From Candidatus Terasakiella magnetica (lineage in GTDB: Bacteria > Pseudomonadota > Alphaproteobacteria > Rhodospirillales > Terasakiellaceae), in NCBI RefSeq assembly GCF_900093605.1, contig NZ_FLYE01000045.1:62001-126000 (forward strand): a stretch of DNA of 64,000 bases, written 5' to 3'. The position numbers and the translations under genes were made by a program. A model generated the notes under the pieces. It was not told where the DNA came from. It did no database searches and worked only from the letters and a program-made list of their open reading frames with translations. This document shows, piece after piece, positions 43,140 through 45,654 of this stretch. Position 1 is the stretch's first letter. Each line of letters starts with the position of its first letter.

Positions 43140-43730
43140 GTGAGGGCAGCTTTTGGTGACCAAGAGACAGATGCCGAGCTTTTGGATCGTTTGGCCATAG
43201 GCGATCAAAAAGCATTCCATTCTTTAATACAAAGACATCTTCCCTACGTTTTAAAAACAGCAGAACGTATGGTGGGTGATGCCAGCAATGCAGAAGATAT
43301 CGCCCAAGAGGTTATGCTCAAGCTTTGGAATAAAGCTGCCGATTGGGATTGCGATGGACAAGCCAAGCTTAAAACATGGCTTTATCGTGTAACGGTCAAT
43401 CTCTGTATTGATAAATATCGCCAAATTAAACATTTGGGGATAGAGCAAATCGAAATTCTGCCCTCATTAGAAAAAGATGCTCTTTCACATGTGCACGAAA
43501 AACAAGTGGAAGAGATTATCAGGAATCTATTTTTTGAACTGACGCCACAACAACGTCTTGTTATTGTTCTGTCATATTATGAAGGGCTGAGTTCAGCCGA
43601 GATTTCTGAGATCATGGAGTTGACGACAGGCGCCGTCACCGGATTACTCCATCGTGCACGCAGAGCTTTAAAAATAAAATTAACTGATTTGGGAATAGAG
43701 GGCTGGGCAGATGACAAAAACAAACGATAA
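43140..43730 (+). CDS. ECF-type RNA polymerase sigma factor
   Basis: This 196-residue group-IV sigma factor has region 2 (LPYVLKTAERMVGDASNAEDIAQEVMLKLW; TWLYRVTVNLCIDKYR) and region 4 (LTPQQRLVIVLSYYEGLSSAEISEIMELTTGAVTGLLHRARRALK). The start is GTG at 43140 after AAGTAAGGCA. It overlaps the next gene by 20 bases, so sigma and its putative inhibitor are translationally coupled. The layout sigma, small membrane protein, periplasmic sensor matches the CnrH/CnrY/CnrX logic of metal-responsive systems. Confidence 0.9.
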   Translation: MRAAFGDQETDAELLDRLAIGDQKAFHSLIQRHLPYVLKTAERMVGDASNAEDIAQEVMLKLWNKAADWDCDGQAKLKTWLYRVTVNLCIDKYRQIKHLGIEQIEILPSLEKDALSHVHEKQVEEIIRNLFFELTPQQRLVIVLSYYEGLSSAEISEIMELTTGAVTGLLHRARRALKIKLTDLGIEGWADDKNKR

Positions 43731-43986
43731 ACAGCTGAACAATTGGTTAGACCATTATAAAGTCGATGTGTCTCATAATCGCATGAGCCGACTTGAAGAG
43801 GAAATTTTTGCCAAAATAAACATGGCTCAAGCCCCTATGTTTGCCCCTATGGGGATGCGTGAAAGTCTTTATACTCTGGGCGGTGTTGGTCTGGTTTCTT
43901 CTCTTGTGTTGGTTCTAAGCCAATGGCTGCAAGCTTCATCTGAAGATGTTGTCTTGGCAACTCTTTATAGTTATGGAGGGTTCTAA
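43711..43986 (+). CDS. Small single-pass membrane protein, putative anti-sigma factor
   Basis: This is a 91-residue protein with a polar, charged N-terminal 50 residues (LNNWLDHYKVDVSHNRMSRLEEEIFAKI) that could bind sigma, then one membrane helix (LYTLGGVGLVSSLVLVLSQWL). It overlaps the sigma gene and is followed after 3 bases by the sensor-like gene. Size and topology recall CnrY, but no family is recognised with certainty. Confidence 0.72.
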   Translation: MTKTNDKQLNNWLDHYKVDVSHNRMSRLEEEIFAKINMAQAPMFAPMGMRESLYTLGGVGLVSSLVLVLSQWLQASSEDVVLATLYSYGGF

Positions 43987-43989
43987 GTT

Positions 43990-44430
43990 ATGGGCAAAGG
44001 GTTTGTCAGTCCGCGATGGAAAAATCCCTTATGTTGGGGCTCTCTTCTTTTAAACGTGGTTCTTATCGGCTTTATTCTTTTGGGCCCCCATGGTCCTTCC
44101 ACTGGACGGCCTTTACCTCAAGACGTTTTTACAAAAATGGCTGAGGATTTAGAGGGACAGGACCGTATTATCTATGAGGCGGTCTTGCAAAAGCATATGG
44201 ATAATATGAAGAAAAGCGGTCGCAATATCCATGAAGCCCTCGGGCTCATCGGTCAAGCAGCCCATCAAGAACCTTTTGATCTGGATAATGTCAAAGCAGC
44301 CCATACTCATCTGCATGCACAGCATCGCGAGATGGACAAAGCCATTACAGATTTTGTTTATGAAATGCTGGTCTCTCTTTCACCAGAAGGCCGCCAAAAG
44401 CTTCGCTTCGCCCCACCAAAACGGGATTGA
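43990..44430 (+). CDS. Periplasmic heavy-metal sensor-like protein (CnrX/Spy-type)
   Basis: This 146-residue protein is anchored by one N-terminal helix (CWGSLLLNVVLIGFILLG) with a helical periplasmic domain. Met/His-containing helices (LQKHMDNMKKSGRNIHEAL, AHTHLHAQHREMDKAI) and the end motif LSPEGRQKLRFAPPKRD are typical of the metal-resistance/CpxP-like superfamily. By analogy with CnrX it would bind metal and release the sigma factor through the small membrane protein. The metal (or calcium, given the EF-hand neighbour) is unknown. Confidence 0.8.
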   Translation: MGKGFVSPRWKNPLCWGSLLLNVVLIGFILLGPHGPSTGRPLPQDVFTKMAEDLEGQDRIIYEAVLQKHMDNMKKSGRNIHEALGLIGQAAHQEPFDLDNVKAAHTHLHAQHREMDKAITDFVYEMLVSLSPEGRQKLRFAPPKRD

Positions 44431-44437
44431 TTTGAGC

Positions 44438-44557
44438 AAAAAAAGGCCCCTAAATCTAATGACTTAGGGGCTAAGTATACTCTTGAGGGATAACGAATGG
44501 ACTGGTGTAGATAATAGCCGCGTTAACATCACAAAGTGACGCACCAGTCCCGGCTAT
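44438..44557 (-). ncRNA. Candidate small RNA 1: nested pseudoknot, Crp-site promoter, own terminator
   Basis: Read on the minus strand, 44557-44551 (ATAGCCG) pairs with 44520-44514, and 44550-44542 (GGACTGGTG) pairs with 44507-44499, an interleaved H-type pseudoknot of 7 and 9 perfect pairs. A small hairpin (TCAC-TTT-GTGA) lies inside. A terminator follows: stem 44471-44464 with 44453-44446, then seven T. CATTAT (44569-44564) serves as -10, giving a start at about 44557, the first base of the pseudoknot. A perfect TGTGA-N6-TCACA site is centred at -41.5. No open reading frame of note. I do not recognise the RNA. Confidence 0.72.
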
Positions 44558-44590
44558 GTAGGTATAATGACGTAGTTGATCAGCGGTGAC

Positions 44591-44606
44591 TGTGACGCTC
44601 ATCACA
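44591..44606. promoter_or_regulatory. Crp-type operator of small RNA 1
   Basis: TGTGACGCTCATCACA is a perfect TGTGA-N6-TCACA palindrome. Its centre (44598.5) lies 41.5 bases upstream of the inferred small-RNA start, the classical class II activator position, and the promoter has no good -35 box. Confidence 0.78.
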
Positions 44607-44635
44607 CCTAGGTGAAAAAATACGTATATTTACGT

Positions 44636-44768
44636 AAAAAAAGCCACACGCATGATGGTGTGGCTTAAAAGTCTCGGGAATGAAAAAGTTCTATTGAGAA
44701 ACAAAGCTTACAACTGCTCTCGATTTGTCCTCTGGGTGAAGGACCGTCATGTCTTTGTCTCTTCTATA
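44636..44768 (-). ncRNA. Candidate small RNA 2 downstream of the crp-like gene
   Basis: On the minus strand, a TATATT -10 (44774-44769) follows a perfect TGTGA-N6-TCACA site. Transcription would start near 44762-44768 and end at a strong terminator: AAGCCACAC (44666-44658) pairing with 44649-44641, then seven T ending at about 44636. The roughly 130-base RNA contains a hairpin GTCCT...AGGAC whose loop holds TTCACCCAG, a possible seed able to pair with purine-rich ribosome sites. Alternatively this hairpin is simply the terminator of the crp-like gene. Confidence 0.55.
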
Positions 44769-44801
44769 AATATAAGAATGCCTTAACAAAGTTTAAAGGT
44801 C

Positions 44802-44817
44802 TGTGATTACAGTCACA
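44802..44817. promoter_or_regulatory. Crp-type operator of small RNA 2 / downstream of crp-like gene
   Basis: TGTGATTACAGTCACA is a second perfect TGTGA-N6-TCACA site, about 45 bases upstream of the inferred start of small RNA 2 and 38 bases beyond the stop of the crp-like gene. Confidence 0.75.
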
Positions 44818-44854
44818 CTCATATAATTAAATATGAGATGAGTAAAAATTATCA

Positions 44855-45544
44855 TCAGTCCCCGCGGACTTCCTCAACCATTTGGGTGAGGAGTTCAATG
44901 TTTTTGACAATAAGGCCATTTTTTTGGCGCTCAACAAAGCCTTTGCGCGCAAGGTCATTCATCACACGCGCAACTGTTTCGCGTGTGGAACTGATGCGCG
45001 AACCGATATCGGAATGAATGGGAATGGGTGAGATAAAAGCCTCATCCTCATCGGTCATATTCTCGCGGGCTTGGCGCAAAATTTCGGCATGGACGCGGTT
45101 AGCCGCACCAAGTGTGGAAAGGTCCATGATGCGCTCATTTGAAATGCGGATGATATGAGCCATGTTTTTCAAAACACGCTCAGCCACAATGGGGTGACCG
45201 GTCAGCAGGCTCATAAAACGTGGTTGGGGCATAGCGGCAAGTAGGGCTCTATCAATGGCCATCACGCTTGCAGAGCGCGGCAGGCCATCAATGGCAGCCA
45301 TTTCGCCAAACTGTTTGCCTTCGGTGAAATCATCCAAGGTTATTTCTTTGCCACCCACTGTGTAGATGACAATGCGCACGCGGCCTTGCACGATGAAGAA
45401 CACATCCGTGCTGTCAGCTTGGCGGTCAATAATCTGTTCGTGGGCGTCGTACCATTTCCATCGGCATTGTTTATTGAGTTCTTCAATAACATCCGTTGGT
45501 AGACCGTCCAACAAATTGATGTTTTCAAGGGTTTGTTGGGTCAT
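44855..45544 (-). CDS. Crp/Fnr-family transcription regulator, Crp-type recognition helix
   Basis: This roughly 229-residue regulator has an N-terminal cyclic-nucleotide-binding domain (VFFIVQGRVRIVIYTVGGKEITLDDF, GKQFGEMAAIDGLPRSASVMA) and a C-terminal winged helix. The recognition helix reads STRETVARVMNDLARKG; the Arg, Glu and Arg contacts match E. coli CRP (RETVGR), predicting binding to TGTGA half-sites. There are no Fnr-type N-terminal cysteines. Start at 45544 is set by AGGACT upstream. Two perfect TGTGA-N6-TCACA sites follow the gene on the same strand. FGEMAAIDGLPRSASV fits a cAMP-type phosphate-binding cassette. Confidence 0.9.
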   Translation of the reverse strand: MTQQTLENINLLDGLPTDVIEELNKQCRWKWYDAHEQIIDRQADSTDVFFIVQGRVRIVIYTVGGKEITLDDFTEGKQFGEMAAIDGLPRSASVMAIDRALLAAMPQPRFMSLLTGHPIVAERVLKNMAHIIRISNERIMDLSTLGAANRVHAEILRQARENMTDEDEAFISPIPIHSDIGSRISSTRETVARVMNDLARKGFVERQKNGLIVKNIELLTQMVEEVRGD

Positions 45545-45610: not shown

Positions 45611-45654
45611 ATTGAATCGGTTTCGAATCAAAAACAATTCGAAACCGATTCAAT
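45611..45654. repeat. Perfect 18-base inverted repeat upstream of the crp-like gene
   Basis: ATTGAATCGGTTTCGAAT (45611-45628) and its exact reverse complement (45637-45654) are separated by eight A-rich bases. No T-run follows on either strand, so it is a poor terminator. It lies 67 bases before the crp-like start and may be an operator or a leader hairpin. Confidence 0.75.

Follow-up and report, generated by a model that had tools for sequence, protein, structure and literature searches.

A putative Crp-activated small RNA with a 5′ pseudoknot in Candidatus Terasakiella magnetica, and the conserved 3′ module of its wider family

The crp-linked locus and its promoters

In the marine bacterium Candidatus Terasakiella magnetica (genus Terasakiella), the minus strand of the window (the whole 64,000-nucleotide stretch of DNA that was analysed) carries a putative gene for a small RNA of about 120 nt, sRNA2 (44557-44438), whose +1 at 44557 and whose extent are predicted from the positions of a promoter and a terminator. 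Upstream, on the same strand, lies crp (44855-45544), with a second Crp-linked unit, sRNA1, in between. The crp gene encodes a Crp-like regulator with cNMP_binding (PF00027) and HTH_Crp_2 (PF13545) domains, which is the likely activator of sRNA2; it scores 70.7 bits against the NCBIfam CRP equivalog, under the cut-off of 266, and its recognition helix, read directly from the sequence, is RETVARV. Helices of this RETVxR type are linked to TGTGA recognition. Three plus-strand genes, encoding an ECF sigma factor, a protein without a Pfam match and a Metal_resist protein, span 43140-44430 and converge on the sRNA2 terminator (44471-44438), 3′ of which the same-strand gene that a riboswitch would regulate is absent. 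The leader between purU and crp contains a perfect 17-bp inverted repeat (45611-45654; ATTGAATCGGTTTCGAA and its complement, with a 10-base loop).

The promoter of sRNA2 comprises a Crp site, TGTGATGAGCGTCACA (44606-44591), which is a perfect TGTGA-N6-TCACA palindrome centred at 44598.5, and a -10 element, CATTAT (44569-44564), beginning 21 bases past the 16-bp Crp site. The distance from the predicted +1 to the site centre is exactly 41.5, which is class II spacing; a preliminary description of this DNA had read the same palindrome, hexamer and start on the minus strand, and all three are where it had placed them. The position at -41.5 leads us to predict activation, not repression, of sRNA2 by Crp. 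Perfect palindromes of this type occur 14 times in the 3.68-Mb genome (reversed control, once), and two of the 14 sit 211 bp apart at the sRNA2/sRNA1 locus; palindromes with one mismatch, of which the window has three, are not above chance, as many being found in 24 of 100 shuffles. Elsewhere in the genome set, two perfect Crp sites stand 43 bases apart (G000:C4:31471-31529, locus L062) beside genes that look, by eye, like a TadE-type pilus gene and a prepilin peptidase gene, and this may be a further Crp target.

The sRNA1 unit (44817-44635, minus strand) has class II spacing as well, with a Crp site at 44817-44802, a CATTCT hexamer at 44780-44775 and a predicted +1 at 44768, followed by a conserved stretch, CTTTTTCATTCCCGAGACT (CTTTTTCATTCCCRARACT; 44688-44670), and a terminator (44666-44641). 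Each of the six Terasakiella genomes has a single occurrence of the sRNA1 3′ motif, and the 311 other genomes of the order have none. The preliminary description had included neither sRNA1 nor the stretch at 44490-44474 that sRNA2 shares with relatives, as discussed below.

The pseudoknot and its confinement to Terasakiella

The predicted transcript begins, at its first base, with the 5′ strand of stem P1 (ATAGCCG, 44557-44551), which can form 7 bp with CGGCTAT at 44520-44514. Interleaved with it is P2, in which GGACTGGTG (44550-44542) pairs over 9 bp with CACCAGTCC (44507-44499), and enclosed is an inner hairpin, P3 (CGTCAC-TTT-GTGATG, 44541-44527; 44541-44536 with 44532-44527). The intrinsic terminator (44471-44438) has an 11-pair stem (44471-44446), then C and seven T. 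These stems, hairpin and terminator are thus present just as first described. In 3000 dinucleotide shuffles of sRNA2, no pair of interleaved Watson-Crick stems reached 7 and 9 bp, and among 6392 80-nt segments of the window (both strands, step 20) such a pair was found only here; a pair of at least 6 and 6 bp is no rarity, arising in 53 of 1000 shuffles.

The 120-nt RNA folds 4.2 sd below its shuffles, in a nested fold that lacks P1. Nested folding favours an alternative for the P1 strand, AUAGC:GUUAU, by 1.3 kcal/mol over leaving that strand free, although P1 as an isolated duplex is much the stronger of the two (-9.0 against -0.9). The GUUAU involved lies before the seed and this alternative is as conserved as P1; UAACG:CGUUA is a further possible pairing in place of the knot.

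A DNA search of 60 relatives matched six genomes including its own, all Terasakiella, and these hold eight full sRNA2 copies (two genomes have two each). All eight have the perfect Crp site, the -10 element and the pseudoknot, with the core conserved; no conserved ORF was seen by eye in the Terasakiella unit. In the alignment of the eight copies (A1), P2 has one compensatory pair (A-U to G-C, in two of eight copies) and one G-U, and P3 has compensatory changes at three of its six pairs. P1 is invariant at six of seven pairs and never covaries, and pair 7 is seemingly lost on both sides at once in one copy (G003a). Thus P2 and P3 have covariation support, while the argument for P1 is its perfect retention; compensatory change, which the preliminary description had proposed looking for in both stems of the knot, is found in P2 and in the inner hairpin and not in P1. 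None of 500 shuffles reached either the covariation score (0.192) or the count of alignment cells with changes on both sides (7). At least as many pairs with two-sided changes (4) were seen in 47 of the 500, and at least as many further pair types in 139. When partner columns were slid by one to three positions, pairing fell from 98.9% to 27-60%.

A covariance model of the pseudoknot (R1), the search for relatives that the preliminary description had called for, matched 6 of 317 genomes of the order, Terasakiella alone; it had no match in the other 311, which include eight other families sharing the 3′ half of the RNA, and gave weak matches (E about 0.07) in three of 384 other genomes of the class sample. 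The exact 18-mer of the tail is found in seven stretches of genome contigs from six records, including T. brassicae and T. pusilla, and in no viral contig; its occurrences in a Nitrospinota MAG (L023) and in Wenyingzhuangia (L026) are taken for chance.

No Rfam family was matched at gathering score, either in the window or at eight loci, so that the earlier remark that no named family with this fold was known holds as far as Rfam goes. Rfam searches at E up to 5 on 44400-44860 gave 13 sub-threshold matches, the best by bits being trpB (22.8 against 59, the best cis-regulatory match) and Yfr10 (22.2 against 43), and for sRNA1 a Betaproteobacteria toxic sRNA (21.4 against 50 bits, E 0.051) and ncS54 (19.9 against 43, E 0.044). 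A ribozyme or riboswitch was rejected, with no such family at gathering score. HDV-like ribozymes have P1 from nucleotide 1, then P2 and an inner P3, and in this order of strands sRNA2 is alike (a 5′ P1 of 7 bp from its first nucleotide, P2, inner P3); unlike them, it has no P4 or P1.1 that we could see. The HDV-like candidate was rejected, being absent from the 13 matches, and since the predicted promoter explains the 5′ end of sRNA2, cleavage is unnecessary.

In one relative (G005), a 7.5-kb island adjoins a full sRNA gene (L212:331-7840, contig 1, about 2223830-2231340). Two tyrosine recombinases and an AbiTii defence protein are encoded in it, and at its other end lies a second copy of the sRNA seed and terminator. 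As this duplicated 3′ end equals the seed region of the window at 20 of 21 bases, the sRNA seed/terminator seems to have been used by the island as its attachment site.

A 3′ module shared across the order

Between the pseudoknot and the terminator of sRNA2 lies a conserved putative seed, TCCCTCAAGAGTATACT (44490-44474). Its pattern, UCCCUCAAGAGYANACU (TCCCTCAAGAGYANACT), occurs at 28 places in 26 of the 317 genomes of the order, in nine families; the reversed control gave 0 matches in the 317 genomes, and the pattern itself has 0 in the 384 other genomes of the class sample. All 28 places have a Crp-like site upstream (21 perfect, one with one mismatch, six with two), and in 25 of the 28 an A2/T6 -10 hexamer stands exactly 21 bases after it; the other three are shifted by one base, and at any other offset from 12 to 33 such a hexamer is found in at most five. 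Together with the retention of site and hexamer in all eight Terasakiella copies, this points to an sRNA gene served by a class II Crp promoter of its own, as the preliminary description had predicted. A terminator hairpin and T run follow the seed in all 28 rows of the family alignment (A4), where the stems differ in sequence; these terminators were judged by eye, the program scan having covered the window.

The crp gene is upstream of the unit at 21 of the 28 loci, and in family f4 divK is downstream at all four loci. Among the loci without crp, one is the distal copy of a Terasakiella pair (for two-copy loci, neighbours were read from the first copy), and L072 and L093 show neither crp nor divK within the locus. 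In the predicted fold of the window RNA, ten of the first 11 seed bases are unpaired. In ensemble predictions the mean probability that UCCCUC is unpaired is 0.79 or more for 24 of the 28 RNAs, three of which were cut inside the terminator and so fold unreliably; in minimum-energy folds the whole 11-base seed is predicted to be unpaired in seven of 28 and UCCCUC in 16 of 28. The AAGAG part is often paired in these predictions, and in family f18 would close a small hairpin with UCCCUC as its loop. On this comparison of sequences, it is the 3′ module, and not the pseudoknot, that defines the wider family.

What precedes the seed differs between families, and the distance from the predicted +1 to the seed ranges from 24 to 211 bases. 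Ten short RNAs (families f2, f22, f18 and f19) are made up of a hairpin that begins at +1 or +2, followed by seed and terminator. Three of the six pairs of this hairpin covary in one genus of f18 (g94); among 500 shuffles, 2 had at least as many cells altered on both sides and 38 at least as many pairs altered in this way. In family f4 the 5′ part is a long closed domain of 33 predicted pairs, two of them changed on both sides, and in family f11 one form (L056) has a 32-aa ORF and then the seed in a single unit. That structure begins at the predicted +1 in independent lineages gives separate support for the start site. The best reading is that the pseudoknot is a lineage-specific 5′ cap in Terasakiella.

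It could instead be that the pseudoknot is the working part, as a sensor or protein-binding fold (in a ligand-regulated sRNA or a protein decoy), and that the tail is a stability element only. The unpaired letters of the knot (UUAACG, and UUA after P1) are nearly invariant in the eight copies, which is more than a clamp needs, and the possible alternatives to the knot, AUAGC:GUUAU and UAACG:CGUUA, would also fit such a role. However, nine families retain the tail and the pseudoknot model matches Terasakiella only, no same-strand gene lies downstream, and no Rfam family comes near threshold (trpB being the closest cis-regulatory one); we regard this reading as unlikely. The idea of a ligand-binding RNA, raised in the preliminary description, finds no support here: no gene follows on the strand, and the pseudoknot model has no match in the eight other families with the 3′ half.

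The neighbourhood of crp in other families bears on how such units may have arisen. From a sample in which 68 of 80 genomes were matched, 24 non-Terasakiella crp loci were taken, and in 14 of these a Crp-like site with no more than one mismatch lies in the 240 bases that follow crp. Ten of the 14 have an ORF of about 30 aa after the site, with KAF or KAI near its start (a motif that the search required), four have the seed, and one, L056, has both. The ten candidate Crp-activated microproteins (L034, L036, L037, L038, L040, L044, L045, L046, L053 and L056) are hydrophobic by eye, and a Pfam scan of four of the peptides found no family. We suggest, tentatively and with the balance somewhat against it, that a Crp-activated locus beside crp has been reused repeatedly within one order, for a microprotein, a microprotein with seed, or a pure sRNA, with the 5′ half swapped and the seed kept; this would give Crp a built-in post-transcriptional arm that, though comparable to Spot 42 or VcdRP, is Crp-activated and evolved independently of them.

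The same loci could be read in another way, with the Terasakiella transcript as the remnant of a Crp-activated microprotein gene of a crp-sORF-divK arrangement, whose ORF was lost and whose tail was kept for termination only. The ten ORF-bearing loci among the 24, and the union of ORF and seed at L056, speak for this, but conservation of the seed goes beyond what termination requires, the terminator stems themselves vary and the Terasakiella unit shows no conserved ORF by eye; we consider this very unlikely.

Proposed function, and comparison with known systems

We propose that 44557-44438 is probably the gene for a trans-acting, Crp-activated, base-pairing sRNA of about 120 nt, belonging to a family of which we found no description, with the pseudoknot as its 5′ cap. 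In this proposal, which is built from sequence comparison and predicted structure, Crp-cAMP, produced from the gene just upstream, would bind at -41.5 and give class II activation when cAMP is high. The transcript would have three parts: a stable 5′ cap, the conserved UCCCUCAAGAGUAUACU with its UCCCUC half mostly exposed, and the terminator hairpin, which with its U tail is a likely handle for Hfq, a gene for which is present in the genome (111.4 bits against a cut-off of 27). UCCCUC resembles an anti-Shine-Dalgarno sequence, and so would pair with mRNAs that carry GAGGGA, in many cases in the ribosome-binding site (the longest match is CUCUUGAGGGA); the pairing would lower translation or stability of these targets. 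Protection of the 5′ end is the probable role of the pseudoknot; RNAs of other families begin, at the same predicted +1, with a plain hairpin.

Searches for targets in the six Terasakiella genomes found no convincing conserved one. The SD-like pattern TTGAGGGA-N3-9-ATG gave 84 rows, eight of which fall in the sRNA gene or in the second copy of its 3′ end, and one place was listed twice, leaving 75 places outside the sRNA gene; two ORF pairs recurred between genomes when ORFs of at least 40 aa were compared, one being an Rrf2-like regulator (by eye, in two genomes) and the other a frame of 40 aa, probably no real gene. The seed core has its exact complement, CTCTTGAGGG, at 30 places in the six genomes, eight in the sRNA gene and 22 outside. 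One group of the 22 recurred, in four of the six genomes (L217, L219, L237 and L239), about 60 bases before a frame resembling, by eye, ribosomal protein L28; this L28-like leader is itself conserved and is therefore a weak target lead. The crp leader is no better a partner for the seed than random DNA of the window, of which 233 out of 300 stretches paired at least as well.

These results also bear on whether sRNA2 might be a sponge or partner of another sRNA rather than a repressor of mRNAs. The conservation of the seed far exceeds that of any recurring mRNA site found, and there is a precedent in another alphaproteobacterium for an sRNA that works as a sponge under carbon starvation: in the excerpted text of PMC12559287, the starvation RNA CrfA of Caulobacter sponges SisA-D, of the alphaR8 family. 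Against this, the complement searches that would also reveal a sponge partner (CTCTTGAGGG and the TTGAGGGA-N3-9-ATG pattern) brought up no recognisable sRNA with a complementary stretch, the one recurring group among the 22 outside sites being the leader of a protein gene; we hold a sponge to be quite improbable and retain the mRNA-pairing sRNA as our preferred reading.

If real, this family would be a test system for the retention of a seed while the 5′ half of an sRNA is replaced, and for whether a base-pairing sRNA can be stabilised by a 5′ pseudoknot as its cap. How dual-function RNAs arise from, or decay to, pure sRNAs may also be seen from the ORF-bearing forms and from the linkage to crp. 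In the part of the literature that was covered, we found no report of an sRNA arm belonging to the Crp regulon of this order, and a search with the letters of the seed gave no bacterial-sRNA paper among the matches listed.

Several described sRNAs resemble sRNA2 in part. The alphaR8/MmgR/SisA family (RF00519) is alike in being a short sRNA with a terminator and gives weak Infernal matches over the 3′ parts of sRNA2 and sRNA1; membership was rejected, with 16.1 bits for sRNA2 and 19.3 bits for sRNA1 against a gathering score of 41. CyaR acts by base pairing, with a seed that differs from that of sRNA2. In enterobacteria CyaR is activated by Crp, according to the excerpted text of PMC8672173; in that of PMC3927594, CyaR appears in reference-list mentions only. 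The likeness to sRNA2 would lie in activation by Crp from a dedicated promoter, and in the terminator; the differences are that sRNA2 has no Rfam match, is linked to crp itself and, in Terasakiella, carries a 5′ pseudoknot. Spot 42, AzuCR and VcdRP are described as Crp-repressed in the same excerpt (PMC8672173), where VcdRP also codes for a 29-aa protein and has a C-rich pairing element. sRNA2 would be like Spot 42 and VcdRP in being a Crp-controlled sRNA, and the f11 form has an sORF with the seed as VcdRP has its ORF; the Terasakiella unit differs in showing no ORF and, whereas those RNAs are repressed by Crp, sRNA2 is predicted to be activated by it.
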